Below, one piece after another: positions 4,649-13,690 of a stretch of DNA of 46,159 bases; position 1 is the first letter of the stretch; each line of letters starts with the position of its first letter. The DNA comes from Bacteroidota bacterium (GTDB lineage: Bacteria; Bacteroidota; Bacteroidia; Bacteroidales; VadinHA17): the NCBI GenBank assembly GCA_022561875.1, contig JADFQJ010000003.1, positions 1-46,159 of the forward strand, written 5' to 3'. The notes beneath the pieces were generated by a model that saw nothing but the letters and a program-made list of their open reading frames with translations, searched no databases and was not told where the DNA came from. Position numbers and translations under genes: made by a program.

Positions 4649-5072
4649 AATTATAAACAAATCGAATAACAAATTACCTCGATATAGTACGGATAAATCA
4701 GCCGGGGTGGATTTGAGAGCAAACCTTAAAAATAGTATAACGCTTAAACCTCTTGAAAGAGCACTTGTGCCAACAGGTTTATTTATTGAACTGCCGGATG
4801 GATATGAGGCCCAAATAAGACCAAGAAGCGGATTGGCAATAAAGAATGGAATTACTGTATTAAATGCTCCCGGAACGATTGATGCGGATTATAGGGGAGA
4901 AATCGAGGTAGTACTTATTAACCTGTCATATGAGAATGTAAAGATAAATAATGGGGATAGAATCTGCCAGATGGTAATTAGTAAGCATGAAAAAGCAATT
5001 TTTAAAGAGGTCAAAGTGTTAAATATTACAAAAAGAGGAAAAGGAGGATTTGGACACACCGGGAACAAGTGA
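4638..5072 (+). CDS. dut: Deoxyuridine 5'-triphosphate nucleotidohydrolase (dUTPase)
   Basis: Trimeric dUTPase of 144 aa that hydrolyses dUTP to dUMP and PPi, keeping uracil out of DNA and feeding dTMP synthesis. All five motifs are present: AGVDLRA (22-28), PRSGLAIK (62-69), [10 protein letters not shown] (79-88), GDRICQMV (106-113) and the C-terminal [10 protein letters not shown] (133-142), which closes over the active site. The start overlaps the flippase end by 11 nt, suggesting translational coupling. The flippase-dut-TPR order is familiar in Bacteroidota. Confidence 0.96.
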
Positions 5073-5147
5073 AATTGCACATAATATCGTACAGTGATTA
5101 AAATGGTTAATATTATTCAAATGAATCAACTAAATTGAAAAGGAAAT

Positions 5148-6899
5148 ATGAAAAGTGAGATGAAAATAGCGATTGGATTAATGATAATAACAGTTTTATT
5201 TACAGGATGCTCGAAAAAACAATTCCCTGAAAAAACAATAAAAAATGTGAAAAAAGCAGGTATTGAAGAGAGTAATGAGATGTTCAGTTATTTTTTTGCT
5301 GAGGGAGTGAAACAAAAAATGCTTGGAGAATTACAACTGGCAGAAAAGCATTTTCATACGGCAGTGAGATTTAATAAGGAAAGATCTGCTGCTTTTTATG
5401 AGTTGTCAAGTATTTATACAATAACAGGAAATGTTAGCGAAGCAATTAAATATGCAGTAAAGGCTGAAAAAATGGATGAAGAAAACATCTGGTATAAATT
5501 ACATCTTGCAAATTTGTATCACATAAACAGGCAAAAGGATAATACAATAAAAATTTACGAGAAAATTAATGCTAAATATCCGGAAAGAAGTGATTTGGCA
5601 TTTAACCTGAGCAAATTGTATGAAGAGAATGGAGAAAAAGAAAAAGCGCTGAAAGTATATGAAAATTTAGAAAAAAGTATTGGACTAAATAAGAAAATCG
5701 GGCTTGCGAAAGTGGGAATTTTTGAAAGGGAAGGAAATTTCGAGAAAGCTAAAAAGGAATTAGAAAAGTTATTGAATATTTATCCCAATGATGTTAATAT
5801 ACTTGGAGTGTTAGCTGAACTTTATAATAATAACGGGTATGATGAAGAAGCAAAACGGACTTTTGATAAATTATTTGAGATTGAACCGGATAATTATATT
5901 GCAAAGCGCTCAATAATAGATTTATACAGAAGAAAAGGCGAATACAAAATGGTTTTTAAGCGGGTAAAAGAGATTATTGAAGAGGAGAAGATAAGTGTAC
6001 CTGAAAAGGTGAAAATGATGATGTCTTTTGTTTCAAGTCCGGAAGAAATGCTCAATTATAGGGCAAACATTGAAATTTATATTGAAATGCTTGAAGACAA
6101 GTATCCGGAAAACTATACTGTTAAAGCAATAATAGCTGATTTTTTTTTAAGAACGGGCAACCTGGAAAAAGCGAGAAATAAATTAAAAGTTATTATAAAG
6201 AAAGGTAATGCAAATTTTGTTCTGTGGGAGCAATATTTGTTCCTTGAAAATAGTCTGGGGAACTATTCAGATCTTTTTACTGAGAGCGGGAAAGCGATAA
6301 AAATTTATCCTGAGAAACCAACGCTATTTCTTTTAAGGGGAATTTCCGGTATTGAAATAGATGAAACGGAAATATCAGTAAAAGCGCTTCAAAAAGGAGT
6401 GAAATTAGTGACAGGCAATAATCAACTGAAAGTACAATTTTATACGCTTTTGGGAGATGCATTCAGGAATGCAGGTTTGAGTAAGAATTCGGATGAAGCA
6501 ATGGAAAGTGCATTGAAAATAGATTCTGAGAATACTATAGTATTAAATAATTATGCATATTATTTATCAGAGAGAGGGGAAAAGCTGAAAAGAGCTTTGA
6601 GGATGAGTAGCAAATGTTTGAAGACAGAACCTTTAAATGCTTTATATTTAGATACGTATGGATGGATATTGTATAAAATGGGAAAATTTGAGGAAGCAAG
6701 AAAATATTTGGAAAAAGCTATGAAAAGGGCAGTGATAAATGATCCTGAAATAACAGAACATTATGCAGATATACTTTACAAAATTGGGGAGTATGGTAAA
6801 GCTGTCGAAAACTGGGAAGATGCGATTTTTTTGGGAGGAGACCGAATGAAAATTGAAAAGAAAATTAATAAAGCAAAAAAAAGAGGACATATAAAATAA
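5148..6899 (+). CDS. Tetratricopeptide-repeat lipoprotein
   Basis: A 583-aa predicted outer-membrane or periplasmic lipoprotein: a short N-terminal hydrophobic segment ends in the lipobox LFTGC (Cys21). The rest is helical TPR repeats, recognisable as repeated A-x-x-x-[YF]-x-[KR]-A-L/I patterns, for example SEAIKYAVKAEKM, KEKALKVYENLEK, EKAKKELEKLLNIYPN and EARKYLEKAMKRA, so it probably scaffolds protein partners. Its stop overlaps the next start (TAATG), indicating an operon with the DUF4292 and EnvC-like genes. Coding is strongly A-rich with AGA for most Arg codons. No enzymatic domain is visible; the partner is unknown. Confidence 0.85.
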   Translation: MKSEMKIAIGLMIITVLFTGCSKKQFPEKTIKNVKKAGIEESNEMFSYFFAEGVKQKMLGELQLAEKHFHTAVRFNKERSAAFYELSSIYTITGNVSEAIKYAVKAEKMDEENIWYKLHLANLYHINRQKDNTIKIYEKINAKYPERSDLAFNLSKLYEENGEKEKALKVYENLEKSIGLNKKIGLAKVGIFEREGNFEKAKKELEKLLNIYPNDVNILGVLAELYNNNGYDEEAKRTFDKLFEIEPDNYIAKRSIIDLYRRKGEYKMVFKRVKEIIEEEKISVPEKVKMMMSFVSSPEEMLNYRANIEIYIEMLEDKYPENYTVKAIIADFFLRTGNLEKARNKLKVIIKKGNANFVLWEQYLFLENSLGNYSDLFTESGKAIKIYPEKPTLFLLRGISGIEIDETEISVKALQKGVKLVTGNNQLKVQFYTLLGDAFRNAGLSKNSDEAMESALKIDSENTIVLNNYAYYLSERGEKLKRALRMSSKCLKTEPLNALYLDTYGWILYKMGKFEEARKYLEKAMKRAVINDPEITEHYADILYKIGEYGKAVENWEDAIFLGGDRMKIEKKINKAKKRGHIK

Positions 6900-7600
6900 T
6901 GGGGAAGCAAAAAATCATACTATTTATTGTTTCACTCTGTTGTATTAATATCATTTTACAGGGATGTAAAACAACTAGAAATACCCTTAAGAAGTTTAAT
7001 GAGGAGAATATTGAAATAATAAGGAATGGAATAATTAGAAACAAAAATGATTATAAAACTGTTTGGATAAAAAGATATAATTGCGAAATAAGGGAAAAAT
7101 GGAAAACAAGAAACTTCTATGGAGGAATAAAGATTGTTAAAGACAAAGGAATACTGATAACAATTAAAAGCGGAATTGGAATGGAAACAGCAAGAATATT
7201 ATTAACTAAAGATTCAGTAAAAATTGTTGATAGAATACATAAAGAAATTTACAATGGTGTATATTCAAAAATGAAAGGCTATTTTAGTTTGGTCGATGGT
7301 TATAAAGAGGTTGAAAATCTGCTGTTATGCAATAATTATATGATAGGAAATGATAATTGGCAACTGCTTGGTTACTTAAAGGAAAACAAAGGGGAAAACG
7401 GAAAGGAAAACAGTTTGAAAATCAATTATTTGGGATGGATTGAGATTGAAGGATTTAAGTTTCCGAAAGGATTAAAAATCGAGATAAATAAAAATGATGA
7501 AAGAACGGTTGTAATATTAGAATATGAGAGGACGGAGATAAATACAAATGTAGAAATTAAATTAGAAAACCCGGATGGATATAAAGTAATAAATTTATGA
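6899..7600 (+). CDS. DUF4292-type lipoprotein, possible LolB-like
   Basis: A 233-aa lipoprotein with a signal peptide ending in LQGC (Cys23). The body alternates short beta-strand-like segments (FYGGIKIVKDKGILITIKSG, METARILLTKDSVKIVDR). This resembles the DUF4292 family, which occurs beside TPR and EnvC-type genes in Bacteroidota. The pattern of an N-terminal strand set followed by 'R-lLt-DSV-iiDR' recalls LolA/LolB half-barrels, so a role in lipoprotein delivery to the outer membrane is a reasonable inference, but it is not demonstrated here. Starts at TAATG with the TPR gene and ends in an ATGA overlap with the EnvC-like gene, so the three are tightly coupled. Confidence 0.75.
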   Translation: MGKQKIILFIVSLCCINIILQGCKTTRNTLKKFNEENIEIIRNGIIRNKNDYKTVWIKRYNCEIREKWKTRNFYGGIKIVKDKGILITIKSGIGMETARILLTKDSVKIVDRIHKEIYNGVYSKMKGYFSLVDGYKEVENLLLCNNYMIGNDNWQLLGYLKENKGENGKENSLKINYLGWIEIEGFKFPKGLKIEINKNDERTVVILEYERTEINTNVEIKLENPDGYKVINL

Positions 7601-8799
7601 TTTGTAGGAAGAGAAAATTATGTATTGGTATATTAATGATTATAGGATTGGTGCTGTTCTCGGGGAAATGCTTTTGCCAAACAAGAAAAGAGCTTGAGAA
7701 AGAAAGAGTGAAAACCATGGAGGAGATTGAATTTACAAGCAAAGTTCTTAAAAGAACAAAACGATATAGAAAAGAATCCTTAAATCAATTGATAATAGTA
7801 AAAGAAAAAATAAATAAAAGAAATGTATATATCCGAACTCTGGAAGATGAAATTGATTTATTAAATAAAAAGATTAGTGACAATAGTTGGATAATAGCAT
7901 CATTAGCAAATGATTTGATGAAAATAAGAGGAGAATATGAGAAAATCATAGTGGGGAGTTATAAAAAATCTAAGAACCAGGATCATATAATTTATTTTTT
8001 ATCATCAGAGAGTTATAGACAAGCGTACAGAAGAATTAAATATTATAAGCAATATGCTGAATACAGAAAAAAACAAGCGAAGAAAATAGTGGCAATAAAA
8101 ACTATTCTTGATAGTAAAGAATCAGAGCTTAAATGTGACAGAGAGAAAAAAAAGGAACTATTAAGCAATATGAGATCAGAGAAAAAGAAACTAAATTATG
8201 AAAAAGAAGAAAAGAACAAAATGGTTGTTAATTTGCGGAAAAAAGAAAGAAAATTACGAAGTGAATTGAGGAAAAGAGAAAGAATCGCAAAACAACTTAA
8301 GAAAGAAATTGAAAGAATGCTTGAAGAGGAAAGAAAGAGAGGGAAAGGAATAATAAAATTAACGCCGGAGGAAAAAATCATTGCAGCGAATTTTTCGAGT
8401 AATAAGGGAAAACTTCCATGGCCGGCAGAAAGAGGAATAATAATAGGGAAATTCGGAAAACATAATCACCCGGTTCTGAAAAATGTTAAGATTAACAACA
8501 ATGGAATTGACATAGCGACAATAGAAAGGGCCGATATTAGAGCGATATTTGATGGAGAAATAAGAAAAATTGTGGCAATTAAAGGTGCAAATAATACAGT
8601 GCTGATTAAACATGGAAATTTCTATACAGTGTACCAAAATTTGATTGAAGTAAATGTAAAAGCTGGTGAAAAGGTAAAAATAAAACAGAAAATAGGAGTA
8701 GTATATTCTGAGAAAGATTCAGAAAACGATAGTGTAATTCATTTTGAAATATGGGAGAATAATATAAAAATGGATCCTGAGAAATGGATTGCAAAATAA
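7597..8799 (+). CDS. EnvC-like murein hydrolase activator (degenerate LytM/M23)
   Basis: A 400-aa periplasmic protein: signal peptide (to about residue 27), long Lys/Glu/Arg-rich coiled coil (about 30-250), then a LytM/M23 domain (about 275-398). In active M23 enzymes the zinc is held by H...D and HxH. Here the first His is replaced (NNNGIDIA rather than HxGIDI) and the second block reads VYQNL instead of Y-x-H-L, leaving only HFEIW. The domain therefore should not cut peptidoglycan itself and fits EnvC/NlpD-type activators of amidases. It is the last gene of the TPR-DUF4292-EnvC set; a 196-bp spacer follows. Confidence 0.87.
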   Translation: MICRKRKLCIGILMIIGLVLFSGKCFCQTRKELEKERVKTMEEIEFTSKVLKRTKRYRKESLNQLIIVKEKINKRNVYIRTLEDEIDLLNKKISDNSWIIASLANDLMKIRGEYEKIIVGSYKKSKNQDHIIYFLSSESYRQAYRRIKYYKQYAEYRKKQAKKIVAIKTILDSKESELKCDREKKKELLSNMRSEKKKLNYEKEEKNKMVVNLRKKERKLRSELRKRERIAKQLKKEIERMLEEERKRGKGIIKLTPEEKIIAANFSSNKGKLPWPAERGIIIGKFGKHNHPVLKNVKINNNGIDIATIERADIRAIFDGEIRKIVAIKGANNTVLIKHGNFYTVYQNLIEVNVKAGEKVKIKQKIGVVYSEKDSENDSVIHFEIWENNIKMDPEKWIAK

Positions 8800-8995
8800 A
8801 TTGTAACCTGGAAGGAAAAAAGTGAGTATAAAGAGAGATGAGATAGGCACATATTTTAACAAATTGATTAGAAAAACCTTAATATGAAAACTAAAAGAGT
8901 AAAATGTGCAGTTGGAAATGTTAGACCTTTGAATTAGCCTAATATTTTATTAATCAATGAATAATTGCAAAATTATAATAACATTTAATTAAAGA

Positions 8996-9391
8996 ATGGA
9001 AAAGAGTCTAAATATAGCGTCAAAAAAGGAAAACCTTCAAAAAGTAGAAAAATTAATTGATGAATTTACAGAAATAAAGGAACTGGATGAAGACCTGTAT
9101 GGGAAAATAATGCTGGCTACAATTGAAGCTGCGAATAATGCTATAGTTCATGGAAATAAACTTGATCCTGAAAAGGAAGTAAAAATTAAAATCATAAAAA
9201 GGGTTGATAGATTTGAAATATTTGTTGAAGATCAGGGTGAAGGGTTTGATTATATGAGAATTCCGGATCCAACGGCACCGGAAAATATTGAAAATATTCA
9301 TGGAAGAGGAATTTTCCTGATGAAACAACTATCAGATGAGGTTAATTTTTTCGACAAAGGAACAAAAGTGCAGATACTTTTTAAGATATAG
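8996..9391 (+). CDS. RsbW-like GHKL ATPase (serine-kinase/anti-sigma type)
   Basis: A 131-aa single-domain histidine-kinase-like ATPase. The N box is ATIEAANNAIVHGN (Glu44, Asn48), the G1 box VEDQGEGFD (79-83) and the G2 box HGRGIFLMKQL (103-110). With no sensor or dimerisation domain, it resembles anti-sigma factor kinases of the RsbW/SpoIIAB type. No cognate sigma factor or STAS antagonist is adjacent, so its target is unknown. In Bacteroidota such a gene commonly precedes ybeY and mnmG, as it does here. Spacers on both sides exceed 150 bp, so it is probably transcribed on its own. Confidence 0.85.
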   Translation: MEKSLNIASKKENLQKVEKLIDEFTEIKELDEDLYGKIMLATIEAANNAIVHGNKLDPEKEVKIKIIKRVDRFEIFVEDQGEGFDYMRIPDPTAPENIENIHGRGIFLMKQLSDEVNFFDKGTKVQILFKI

Positions 9392-9408
9392 TAGGTTGAG
9401 TAGGTTAA
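9391..9408 (+). repeat. 9-bp tandem pair after the RsbW-like gene
   Basis: GTAGGTTGA and GTAGGTTAA stand in tandem, starting at the last base of the stop codon. The wording matches the reverse complement of the atpA-atpH array at 42472-42511 (gttgag / gtagg). Confidence 0.45.
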
Positions 9409-9469
9409 GGATGAAGGAAGGAGAAAGCAAAGACATGTGTTTACGATTCACAACTCACGATTATTAAAT

Positions 9470-9505
9470 TTTAGTCAATTTAGTCATTTTAAGGACTTTA
9501 GACAC
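9470..9505 (+). repeat. TTTAGNCAC 9-mer array, locus 2 (before ybeY)
   Basis: Four contiguous 9-mers: TTTAGTCAA, TTTAGTCAT, TTTAAGGAC, TTTAGACAC. They fill part of the 154-bp spacer between the RsbW-like gene and ybeY. Same family as 1134-1158, 40670-40704 and 42371-42408. Confidence 0.6.
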
Positions 9506-9545
9506 TTCTTTTATTTAACACTGAATAGATGTAATAGCTAAATTA

Positions 9546-9959
9546 ATGGAAATATTTTTTCATAGGGAAGAGGTTAAAACTGATGTGAAAGAAAAAAAAA
9601 GAATAAAGGATTGGATTAAGGCGACAATAAATAGCGAAGGAAAAACGGGAGAAACAATAAATATTATTTTTACAAGCAATAGTAAAATAAAGTATTTAAA
9701 TAGAAAGTATCTGAAGAGAAACTATATAACAGATATTATTGCTTTCAATTATAACCGTGATGACCTTATTTCCGGAGACCTGTTTTTGAACCCGGAAACA
9801 ATTAAAAAGAACGCGGGAAAATATAAAACAAAATTTTCAGAGGAAATTTTAAGAGTTATAATTCATGGCGTTTTACACCTGATTGGTTATAATGACAAGA
9901 ATAAGGAGGAGAAATTGGTGATGAAAGAAAAGGAGAATTTATTTCTGGAAAGATTTTAG
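9546..9959 (+). CDS. ybeY: rRNA maturation RNase YbeY
   Basis: A 137-aa UPF0054 metalloprotein acting in 16S rRNA 3'-end maturation and 70S ribosome quality control. The signature reads IIHGVLHLIGYNDK: His107 and His111 are the first two zinc ligands. The third canonical His (HGxLHLxGYDH) is replaced by Asp117; I recall Bacteroidota YbeY proteins having the same substitution (GYxDK), so this is probably a lineage variant with Asp as ligand rather than an inactive protein. A family-typical middle block, YITDIIAFNY, is also present. mnmG follows after 88 bp on the same strand. Confidence 0.92.
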   Translation: MEIFFHREEVKTDVKEKKRIKDWIKATINSEGKTGETINIIFTSNSKIKYLNRKYLKRNYITDIIAFNYNRDDLISGDLFLNPETIKKNAGKYKTKFSEEILRVIIHGVLHLIGYNDKNKEEKLVMKEKENLFLERF

Positions 9960-10047
9960 ACCGTTATAGAGCTTAACAAAGGAAAAAAAGAATTATGAAC
10001 AAGATTTACTAAAAACGAATTTCGAAGTTTCTATTGAGGAATGATTA

Positions 10048-11919
10048 ATGAATAAATATGATGTTATCGTTATTGGTGCAGGACATGCAGGTTGCGAAGC
10101 TGCCGCCGCCGCCGCCAATATGGGTTCTAAAGTAATGCTGATAACGATGGATATGACAAAAATTGCGGAAATGTCGTGTAATCCGGCAATGGGAGGCATT
10201 GCTAAAGGTCAGATAATTAGAGAGATTGACGCACTGGGAGGATTAAGTGGGGTTGTTACAGATGAAACTATGATACAGTTCAGAATGCTTAATAAATCAA
10301 AAGGACCTGCAATGTGGAGCCCAAGAGCACAAAACGACAGAATAAAGTTTTCAAAAATGTGGAGAGAAAAACTGGAAAGCATAGAAAAGCTTGATTTTTG
10401 GCAGGATACAGTGAATAAAATATTAATAGAAAATGGAAAAGCAGTAGGAGTAAAAACAAATTTGGAAATAAAGATAAAAGGAAAGAGCGTGATTATTACA
10501 AGCGGAACTTTTATGAATGGGCTGATGCATGTAGGAAAAGTACAAAAAGAAGGAGGGAGGGAATCACAACCTGCATCGTATGGTTTATCTGATCAGCTCA
10601 AGAATATTGGTTTTGAGGTTGGAAGAATGAAGACAGGAACACCGGCAAGAATTGATGGAAGAAGCATTGATTTCAGTAAATTGAAAGAGCAAAAAGGGGA
10701 TGATGAAGGGAAATGTTTCTCTTTTATGAATGATGAGGTTGAGATAAAAAATGAAAAAAGCTGTTTCATTGCTTATACAAGCAGAGAAGTACATGATATT
10801 CTTGAATCAGGGCTCGATGAGTCGCCAATGTATGACGGAACAATTAAAAGCACCGGACCAAGATATTGTCCAAGCATTGAGAGTAAAATAGTAACGTTTT
10901 CGGAAAAAGACAAGCATCAGTTGTTCATTGAGCCGGAAGGAGAAAATACTATTGAATACTATATAAATGGGTTTTCATCCAGTCTGCCGCTGAAAGTACA
11001 ATATAATGCAATTAGAAAAATAAAAGGATTGGAAAAAGCTAAAATATTCAGACCGGGATATGCAATTGAATATGATTATTTTCCTCCAACGCAAATAAAA
11101 CATACACTGGAAACGAAAAAAATAAAAAATCTTTATTTCGCCGGTCAGGTTAACGGAACAACAGGATATGAAGAGGCCGGCGCACAGGGATTAATGGCAG
11201 GGATTAATGCACATTTAAAAATTAATAAAAAGAATGAATTGATTCTAAATCGTAATGAAGCTTACATAGGTGTGCTTATCGACGATCTTGTTACTAAAGG
11301 TGTTGATGAACCATACAGGATGTTTACGTCAAGAGCAGAATACCGTATATTATTACGACAAGATAATGCAGATGAAAGACTGACGGAAATAGGGTATAAA
11401 ATAGGATTGGCATCGGAAGAAAGAATAAAAAGAAAAAGAAAGAAATATGATAAAAGAAATAAGATTATTGATTTTCTGAAAAAGGAATCAGTAAACCCTG
11501 GAGAGATCAATGGTAAACTTGAAAATCTTGGAACTGCAATAATAAAACGGAGAAAAAAAATATACGAAATCCTGTTACGACCGCAAGTTAGTATTTATGA
11601 CCTGGAAGATGAATTAGCAAAGGTCAGAAACGAATTTGATGGAATAAAAGAAATGAAAAGTGAAATACTGGAATCAGCAGAAATTGAGATAAAATACGCT
11701 GGATATATTGAGAGAGAGAAAAAAATTGCTGAAAAGATAATGAGGCTGGAGAAAATAAAAATAAAAATAAATATTAAATATGAGAAAATACTGTCCATCT
11801 CAACGGAAGGACGACAAAAACTGGAAAAAATAAGACCGAAAACAATCGGACAGGCATCAAGAATAAGCGGTGTATCACCGTCAGACGTTAATGTGTTGTT
11901 AATATATATGGGGCGATAA
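10048..11919 (+). CDS. mnmG: tRNA uridine-5-carboxymethylaminomethyl(34) synthesis enzyme MnmG (GidA)
   Basis: A 623-aa FAD protein that, with MnmE, installs the carboxymethylaminomethyl (or aminomethyl) group at wobble U34 of tRNAs reading NNR codons. The FAD dinucleotide motif GAGHAGCEAA starts at Gly10. SCNPAMGGIAKGQ, the tGTFMNGLMHVG block and YFAGQVNGTTGYEEAGAQG are family hallmarks. The C-terminal helical domain ends with RISGVSPSDVNVLLIYM. Length is normal. Two parS-type palindromes lie just downstream; the first ends in a T run and could also terminate transcription. The second half of the gene is very A-rich with mostly AGA Arg codons. Confidence 0.97.
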   Translation: MNKYDVIVIGAGHAGCEAAAAAANMGSKVMLITMDMTKIAEMSCNPAMGGIAKGQIIREIDALGGLSGVVTDETMIQFRMLNKSKGPAMWSPRAQNDRIKFSKMWREKLESIEKLDFWQDTVNKILIENGKAVGVKTNLEIKIKGKSVIITSGTFMNGLMHVGKVQKEGGRESQPASYGLSDQLKNIGFEVGRMKTGTPARIDGRSIDFSKLKEQKGDDEGKCFSFMNDEVEIKNEKSCFIAYTSREVHDILESGLDESPMYDGTIKSTGPRYCPSIESKIVTFSEKDKHQLFIEPEGENTIEYYINGFSSSLPLKVQYNAIRKIKGLEKAKIFRPGYAIEYDYFPPTQIKHTLETKKIKNLYFAGQVNGTTGYEEAGAQGLMAGINAHLKINKKNELILNRNEAYIGVLIDDLVTKGVDEPYRMFTSRAEYRILLRQDNADERLTEIGYKIGLASEERIKRKRKKYDKRNKIIDFLKKESVNPGEINGKLENLGTAIIKRRKKIYEILLRPQVSIYDLEDELAKVRNEFDGIKEMKSEILESAEIEIKYAGYIEREKKIAEKIMRLEKIKIKINIKYEKILSISTEGRQKLEKIRPKTIGQASRISGVSPSDVNVLLIYMGR

Positions 11920-11951
11920 GTAATAGAAAAAGGAAGAAGTTGAGTATAAAC

Positions 11952-11977
11952 AAAAGTGTTCCACGTGGAACACTTTT
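11952..11977. promoter_or_regulatory. parS-type site 1 within a 26-bp perfect palindrome; possible mnmG terminator
   Basis: The core TGTTCCACGTGGAACA (11957-11972) is identical to a well-known ParB-binding parS sequence variant. Self-complementarity extends five bases further on each side, giving a perfect 26-bp palindrome followed by two more T. As RNA it would fold into a hairpin ending in a U tract 33 nt after the mnmG stop, so it may also serve as an intrinsic terminator. A second core lies 69 bp downstream. Confidence 0.75.
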
Positions 11978-12025
11978 TTGGTTACAGAAAGTATATAGTT
12001 TCACTTTTTACTTTTATCTTAGTAT

Positions 12026-12041
12026 TGTTCCACGTGGAACA
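12026..12041. promoter_or_regulatory. parS-type site 2 (centromere-like ParB site)
   Basis: An exact second copy of TGTTCCACGTGGAACA, 69 bp from the first and 11 nt before the adenine deaminase start codon. Here the flanks are not palindromic, which argues that the conserved unit is the 16-bp ParB site and not a terminator hairpin. parA/parB are not in the window. ParB spreading from here could affect ade transcription. Confidence 0.75.
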
Positions 12042-12052
12042 TTAATTAACAA

Positions 12053-13690
12053 ATGAAAGAAAAAAAATATATTTTATTTGGGAAATTGGTTGACCCGGTA
12101 AACAGGGAAATGCTAAATGCAAAAATTTCTGTGGAAGATGGGAAAATAAAGGAAATAACACAGATAGAAAATCAGGAGGGAAGGTATATCCTTCCGGGAT
12201 TTGTTGATTCTCATGTGCATATTGAAAGTTCAATGCTTACTCCGGGAGAGTTTGCCCGGCTGGCAGTAAGGCACGGAACGGTTGCAACACTGTCCGATCC
12301 GCACGAAATTGCAAATGTATGCGGGAAAGAGGGATTGAGATTTATGATTGAGGATGGAAAAAAAGTGCCTTTGAAATTTCATTTTGGTGTTCCTTCATGC
12401 GTGCCTGCTACGGACTTTGAAACCTCAGGGGCAAATCTGAATGCTAAAATTGTTGGAGAACTACTGAAAAGCGATGATTACTTTTTCTTGTCGGAAATAA
12501 TGAACTACCCGGGAGTGATACGTGATGATGAAGAAGTATGGGAAAAAATCAGATCTGCAATAAAAGTTAACAAACCTGTTGATGGGCATGCACCCGGTCT
12601 TACAGGAAATGGTTTGAGAAAATATGCAGGTGCAAATATCACTACAGATCACGAATGCGCAACAATTGATGAAGCTGTTGAAAAAATCAGGAGTGGTATA
12701 AAAATTCAAATACGGGAAGGAAGTGCAGCTAAAAATTTTAACACCCTGTTTCCTTTGATTAAACAGTATACTGAAAAAGTTATGTTGTGTACAGACGATT
12801 GTCATCCTGACGATCTGGTAAAAGGACACATAAACCTGCTTGTTAAAAGAGGTATTGAGAAGGGGATTGACCTGTTCGATATGTTAACGGCTGCTTGTAT
12901 AAACCCTGTTAAACACTATGGATTGAATGTTGGTATGCTGCAGATTGGTGATCCGGCCGATTTTATAATCGTAAATAATCTGAATGATTTCAATATCGTT
13001 GAAACATATATTAACGGTGAAAAAGTGTATGACAGGGGTAAACTATTATTTGACTATGCCGGAAGCAAACCTATAAATAATTTTAAACGAACTGAAATAT
13101 CAATAAACGACCTGATAATTGATGAAAAAAGAAAAAAAATCAGGGTAATAGAATGTTTTGAAGGACAATTGTTTACGAACACTTTGGTGACAGAACCCAA
13201 AACAGGGAATGGACAATTAATTGCGGATATTGAAAAAGATATATTAAAACTGGTTGTTATTAGCCGTTACAACAATTCAAAACCGGCTATTGGTTTTATT
13301 CATGGTTTCGGACTTAAAAACGGAGCCCTGGCAGGGAGCATTGCACATGACAGTCATAATATTATTGCGGTTGGCACAAATGACAAGGATATATTGAACG
13401 CCGTTAATTCCGTTATATCTAAAAAGGGAGGTATAGCTGTTTCCGTAAAAGACAATACCAGGTTTTTACCCCTTGAAATAGCCGGATTAATGTCTTACGG
13501 TGATGGTGAAAAGGTGGCTGCAAGGTATGCCGAGCTTAACAATTTTGCACAATCTTTGGGATCTTCATTCAGATCACCGTTTATGACCCTCTCTTTTATG
13601 GCTCTTCTGGTAATTCCTGAACTGAAACTGTGCGATAAAGGACTTTTTGATGTAACCTCTTTTTCTCCGGTTTCGCTGTTTGTAGATTAA
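12053..13690 (+). CDS. ade: Adenine deaminase
   Basis: A 545-aa amidohydrolase-superfamily enzyme converting adenine to hypoxanthine and ammonia for purine salvage. The metal-binding VDSHVHIESSML (Asp52, His54, His56), HGTVATLSDPHEIANVCG, DGHAPGL, TDHECA and TDDCHPDDL blocks are all typical of Ade. The C-terminal beta domain with FIHGFGLKNGALAGSIAHDSHN is complete and the length is normal. It stands between mnmG and uvrC, a position where I recall adenine phosphoribosyltransferase in some Bacteroides. The start codon sits 11 nt after a parS-type site, and codon use is visibly less AGA-biased than in mnmG. Confidence 0.96.
   Translation: MKEKKYILFGKLVDPVNREMLNAKISVEDGKIKEITQIENQEGRYILPGFVDSHVHIESSMLTPGEFARLAVRHGTVATLSDPHEIANVCGKEGLRFMIEDGKKVPLKFHFGVPSCVPATDFETSGANLNAKIVGELLKSDDYFFLSEIMNYPGVIRDDEEVWEKIRSAIKVNKPVDGHAPGLTGNGLRKYAGANITTDHECATIDEAVEKIRSGIKIQIREGSAAKNFNTLFPLIKQYTEKVMLCTDDCHPDDLVKGHINLLVKRGIEKGIDLFDMLTAACINPVKHYGLNVGMLQIGDPADFIIVNNLNDFNIVETYINGEKVYDRGKLLFDYAGSKPINNFKRTEISINDLIIDEKRKKIRVIECFEGQLFTNTLVTEPKTGNGQLIADIEKDILKLVVISRYNNSKPAIGFIHGFGLKNGALAGSIAHDSHNIIAVGTNDKDILNAVNSVISKKGGIAVSVKDNTRFLPLEIAGLMSYGDGEKVAARYAELNNFAQSLGSSFRSPFMTLSFMALLVIPELKLCDKGLFDVTSFSPVSLFVD

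Follow-up and report, generated by a model that had tools for sequence, protein, structure and literature searches.

The mnmG-ade spacer and its palindromic sites

The window analysed here is the whole stretch of 46,159 nucleotides, in which mnmG (gidA) is followed on the same strand by ade. The spacer between the two genes is 133 bp long, from the mnmG stop codon TAA, which ends at 11919, to the ade ATG at 12053, and it contains two exact copies of a 16-bp palindrome. The features of the locus are as follows:

10048..11919, + strand: mnmG (gidA), tRNA modification enzyme, anchor gene of the predicted parS sites (Pfam GIDA, 1.8e-165)
11952-11977, no strand: 26-bp perfect palindrome AAAAGTGTTCCACGTGGAACACTTTT with predicted parS site 1 inside, found in the sequence; folds as a hairpin
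11957-11972, no strand: predicted parS site 1, TGTTCCACGTGGAACA, exact match, 37 nt past the mnmG stop codon
12026-12041, no strand: predicted parS site 2, TGTTCCACGTGGAACA, exact match
12053..13690, + strand: ade, adenine deaminase, next gene downstream (NCBIfam TIGR01178, 618.7 bits, cut-off 472.5)

The start-to-start distance of the two copies of TGTTCCACGTGGAACA is 69 bp, and the gap between site 2 and the ade start is 11 nt. This geometry, together with the identity of the two sites, the spacer length and the 26-bp palindrome, had been described in a first-pass annotation and was confirmed in the sequence in every respect. Allowing up to three mismatches, the window holds two matches to the 16-mer, compared with 0.06 expected in shuffles. 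In the whole genome (2,773,088 bp in 104 contigs), these two sites are the only ones even at up to two mismatches, a reversed-pattern control gives no match at the same threshold, and 0.0003 exact copies are expected in a sequence of this size, as calculated from the base composition of the window. The genome-wide count of the 16-mer, which the annotation had called for, thus speaks against copies scattered over the genome. An IS1595-type transposase is encoded at positions 151-1062, at the left contig edge.

Identity as parS and the partner proteins

Chromosomal parS is a 16-bp palindrome, TGTTYCACGTGRAACA, that is present in few and clustered copies, and the genome holds two exact copies in 2.77 Mb, 69 bp apart. 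The identical 16-mer is described as parS2 and parS3 of Pseudomonas aeruginosa (PMC4368675) and is given as the parS of P. putida (PMC7022226). A single ParB match was detected in the genome by profile search (TIGR00180, 184 bits). The protein comprises 292 aa, and its gene directly follows parA on contig C59 (locus L033), which is another contig than that of the palindrome pair. Compared with solved structures, this ParB matched 15 distinct sequences at E-values up to 0.001, including chains of ParB/Spo0J (2e-50 to 1.5e-47) and also chains of Noc (2e-48 to 1e-45). Among the NCBIfam models, it scores above the cut-off of parB_part, and the Noc model gives 238 bits, under its cut-off of 315. 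Since the gene adjoins parA, the protein is assigned as ParB rather than Noc. Its translation contains the stretches GERRYRA and ENIQRE, which we take to be the CTP-binding motifs of ParBs. ParA was assigned from its translation and position, as all its NCBIfam matches are below the cut-offs, and with this assignment both ParA and ParB are encoded in the genome.

The proposal of the annotation that the sites are a parS variant holds on three grounds: the occurrence of the same 16-mer in the two Pseudomonas species, the presence of parAB and the restriction to two copies. The presence of a parB, on which the proposal also depended, is established by the one match beside parA. That the pair is genuine parS is well supported by sequence comparison, copy number, partner genes and the conserved place described below. 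The kind of site is already known, namely the bacterial chromosomal centromere parS, and the pair is ordinary in kind.

Conservation of the sites beside mnmG

The distribution of the site was surveyed in draws of genomes from the phylum and from the order. In the phylum draw, TGTTYCACGTGRAACA is present in 224 of 296 genomes and the reversed control in 1 (table read by eye), leaving 72 genomes without an exact site. Loci of relatives were fetched from this draw, and mnmG or ybeY lies within 1.5 kb of the site in 23 of the 29. The six loci at which the site is not at mnmG are L010-L013, L018 and L019; the ORFs of L010, L012 and L018 were read and no neighbour common to these three was found. 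In L018 (1467-1781), the parS copy sits within an ORF, where it would read FHVEH, which is probably meaningless.

The order sampled next is probably Bacteroidales, judging from a stretch that G238 (L080) has in common with Bacteroides ihuae (L195) and from the lineage of the latter. In the draw from this order, the 14-bp core was found in 162 of 198 genomes, with the reversed control in 6 (table read by eye); 36 genomes are without an exact site, and 180 of the 198 have an mnmG match. The distance to mnmG was counted among the matches listed, which cover 48 of the 162 site-bearing genomes. Five of these 48 (G298, G310, G365, G457 and G463) have no listed mnmG coordinates and were left out, although for two of them, G298 and G310, mnmG can be seen at the corresponding loci (L076 and L082). 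A site lies within 300 bp of mnmG in each of the 43 genomes with both coordinates among the matches listed, on the 3' side in 42 and on the 5' side in 10. The 67 sites listed for these genomes comprise 49 on the 3' side, 10 on the 5' side, 4 at a greater distance and 4 on a different contig. Of the 49 listed 3' sites, 34 begin at most 12 nt from the mnmG stop codon, and site 1 of the window, at 37 nt, is farther out than most of its counterparts. The sole member of the same family in the order draw (G406) has an exact site 1 nt past the mnmG stop codon and a further copy with one mismatch 324 bp beyond it.

Public records were also compared, using the best 80 of at least 579 confirmed mnmG loci. 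Among these 80, a site is present within 300 bp of mnmG in 64, 3' of the gene in 43 and 5' of it in 31, and shuffled mnmG loci gave 0 matches in 1600. Fifteen of the 80 have no site in the stretch examined, and in one locus copies occur within mnmG only. Sorted by eye according to record title, sites in Bacteroidales are mostly 3' of mnmG, 5' sites are found in Cytophagales and in relatives of Pedobacter and Chitinophaga, several Flavobacteriales carry sites on both sides, and five loci from Saprospiraceae, Saprospirales and Neolewinella are without a site. Overall, parS has held its place next to mnmG in much of Bacteroidota. Among the listings and passages from open-licence PubMed Central, no paper linking parS to mnmG in Bacteroidota was found; the main survey of parS sites, Livny 2007, may contain this link.

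Alternative roles: control of ade and termination of mnmG

The short distance of 11 nt between site 2 and the ade start would suit operators for a regulator of ade, or of mnmG and ade together, in place of a centromere. This possibility is extremely improbable, as sites are kept at loci that have uvrC in place of ade behind mnmG (an exact one in L041, inexact ones in L055 and L063), some loci have sites solely upstream of mnmG, and the genome holds no further copies. Any role tied to ade is disfavoured because of these three uvrC loci. An ade promoter in the spacer was also considered and set aside: two sigma-70-like sites were found where 1.5 would be expected, and each of them begins just 7 nt upstream of the ATG.

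The extended first copy had also been proposed to double as the mnmG terminator, and this copy does fold as a hairpin. It has an 11-bp stem and a 4-nt loop; its folding energy, taken over 51 nt, is -15.5 kcal/mol (z -3.2), and the hairpin of copy 2 reaches -12 kcal/mol (z -2.9). The stem of copy 1 ends in TTTT, followed by TT, and this copy is T-rich on both sides; a scan with a consensus terminator called copy 1 on the minus strand only. For comparison, a set of 89 mnmG-proximal 3' sites, the one in the window included, was obtained from 140 loci by removing any that had no 3' site up to 300 bp away, along with rows identical over the 60 nt from the stop codon. The 26-bp palindrome is the longest among these 89. 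T-rich sequence follows downstream in 7 of the 89 and is found on the opposite strand in 19, and a conserved role as mnmG terminator is rejected on these counts.

It could still be argued that the first palindrome is mainly an intrinsic mnmG terminator, with its likeness to parS a by-product, and the hairpin, the run of T and the greatest palindrome length among the proximal sites would fit this. However, the terminator call on the minus strand only and the rarity of T-rich tails downstream oppose it, and longer palindromes occur at sites that are not proximal to mnmG (up to 56 bp at 17 distal 3' sites and up to 32 bp at 56 sites 5' of mnmG). In addition, the exact parS letters in both copies would be left unexplained. 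This reading of the palindrome is very improbable. A combination of both roles, compatible with the preferred centromere explanation, would be that the pair consists of centromere sites of which copy 1 is predicted to end mnmG transcripts in this lineage alone. The hairpin of copy 1 is in line with this combination, but the terminator signature is not conserved, and the combination is rather unlikely.

Position relative to the replication origin

As centromere sites, the pair had been expected near the chromosome origin. The position of the pair in this organism, whose genome is in 104 contigs with the pair on one of 121.6 kb (C61), is inferred from three closed relatives (G269, G427 and G488), in all of which the sites are located at mnmG. 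Cumulative GC skew, as sampled, reaches its minimum 11 kb from the mnmG-parS locus in G269, 43 kb from it in G427 and 42 kb in G488. The expectation of the annotation therefore agrees with the three relatives, and a position near the terminus, which would have spoken against it, is contradicted in all three, as the skew minimum is close to the sites.

The skew was sampled in 20-kb stretches, of which there were 20 for G269, 28 for G427 and first 29 and then 49 for G488, placed more densely around mnmG; the closed genomes G002, G033 and G553 are outside this sample, and G002 and G033 are without an exact site. When the mnmG-proximal stretches are omitted, the minimum falls at 610 kb in G269, 1550 kb in G427 and 740 kb in G488. 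The G488 value, obtained with 18 coarse stretches and none of them by mnmG, is 0.6 Mb from parS, for which one stretch, that at 655 kb, is responsible. With 49 stretches, the minimum of G488 is at 80 kb whether the mnmG stretch is included or not, and in 98.9% of 1000 subsamples its distance from parS is no more than 100 kb. In the window itself, the coding strand is strongly purine-rich over positions 5001-12000, with a GC skew of 0.29 to 0.49 and an AT skew of 0.17 to 0.35 in 1-kb steps.

The distance from dnaA to the mnmG-parS locus is 1.42 Mb in G269, 1.16 Mb in G427 and 1.87 Mb in G488. In G427, parB lies about 55 kb from parS; in G488 the distance is 0.90 Mb, and G238 has parB 0.63 Mb away from mnmG, so that it is more than 0.6 Mb off in two of the three relatives that have both on one contig. 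From these distances it follows that parS stays at mnmG, whereas dnaA and often parB do not. The sampled skew minimum, too, is over 1.1 Mb away from dnaA in all three closed relatives, and oriC has been described as commonly far from dnaA in Bacteroidetes (PMC4755523). The gene gidA is recognised as belonging to the origin region and is a member of a proposed ancestral origin gene cluster (PMC2099444); chromosomal parB genes are often found close to it (PMC10653881). Given these descriptions, a parS beside mnmG may be interpreted as left over from the ancestral origin gene cluster.

Probable ParABS segregation and the question of SMC-ScpAB

In the general ParABS model, ParB binds parS, closes into a CTP clamp and slides, and ParA moves the resulting complex (PMC7333895). 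The two palindromes are very probably chromosomal parS sites serving such a ParABS segregation system. The one ParB detected in the genome would bind each of the sites, the bound protein would close into a CTP clamp and slide into the flanking DNA, and the neighbouring ParA would carry the DNA near the origin, coated with ParB, into the daughter cells. Such spreading may, as the annotation suggested, affect ade.

In other bacteria, ParB at parS also recruits SMC-ScpAB (PMC7333895). Profile searches gave no ScpA match in this genome or in four relatives from the order, and ScpA was found in both of two relatives from the class. In larger draws, 0 of 99 genomes of the order matched ScpA, and 20 of 99 in the class draw, which includes 4 genomes of the order, did. 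SMC-ScpAB loading was set aside as a mechanism on the ScpA results for this genome and for the order. A fragment of an SMC head of 242 codons is present in the assembly at 9094-9822 of locus L165, where contig C93 (9.9 kb) ends. This contig gives the impression of being chimeric. The SMC model PF02463 matches many ATPases, and its best matches in three relatives are 374 to 572 residues long, which is short for SMC. Loading of SMC-ScpAB at the sites is considered unlikely because ScpA is without a match in the 99 genomes of the order. The annotation had called the spacer a chromosome-segregation loading site, and its reading of the sites as parS stands, whereas loading of SMC-ScpAB is doubtful.

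The absence of ScpA agrees with the report in PMC10197239 that no known condensin was found in two Bacteroidetes; the same source describes a secondary-diagonal (arm-contact) signal in Bacteroides caecimuris without a known condensin. A wider proposal, which we put forward tentatively and which may well not hold, is that a centromere is locked to mnmG throughout Bacteroidota and is a better origin marker than dnaA, and that in Bacteroidales, which gave no ScpA match, ParB at this site could work independently of SMC-ScpAB, relying on ParA only or loading an unknown arm-aligning factor.

Comparison with known systems

The chromosomal parS sites of Pseudomonas (parS2/parS3 of P. aeruginosa and parS of P. 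putida) have the same 16-mer and likewise occur as few copies near the origin. Unlike these, the pair described here adjoins mnmG, parAB is on another contig, and ScpA was not found in the order. The parS sites of B. caecimuris and Muribaculum intestinale (PMC10197239) likewise belong to Bacteroidota and form clusters; the origin is not always at dnaA and no known condensin was found. The available text of that source names neither mnmG nor the precise position of the sites. In that study, the parS cluster was used to pick the skew shift that marks the origin, so that the study cannot serve as independent proof that parS is near the origin. In the ancestral origin cluster of gidA, gidB, parA, parB and dnaA (PMC2099444, PMC10653881), mnmG/gidA likewise belongs to the origin region and commonly neighbours chromosomal parB. 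In contrast to this cluster, parS stays with mnmG here, and dnaA, as well as parB in two of three relatives, are far off.

Two points are of interest: the sites keep to mnmG, a place that in three relatives is close to the skew minimum, and ScpA is absent from the sampled genomes of the order. A parS pair beside mnmG could serve to mark the origin region when genomes of Bacteroidota are assembled, since dnaA is a misleading guide there (in all three closed relatives sampled). With ScpA absent from all 99 genomes sampled, the order is suited to asking what ParB-parS does without SMC-ScpAB.
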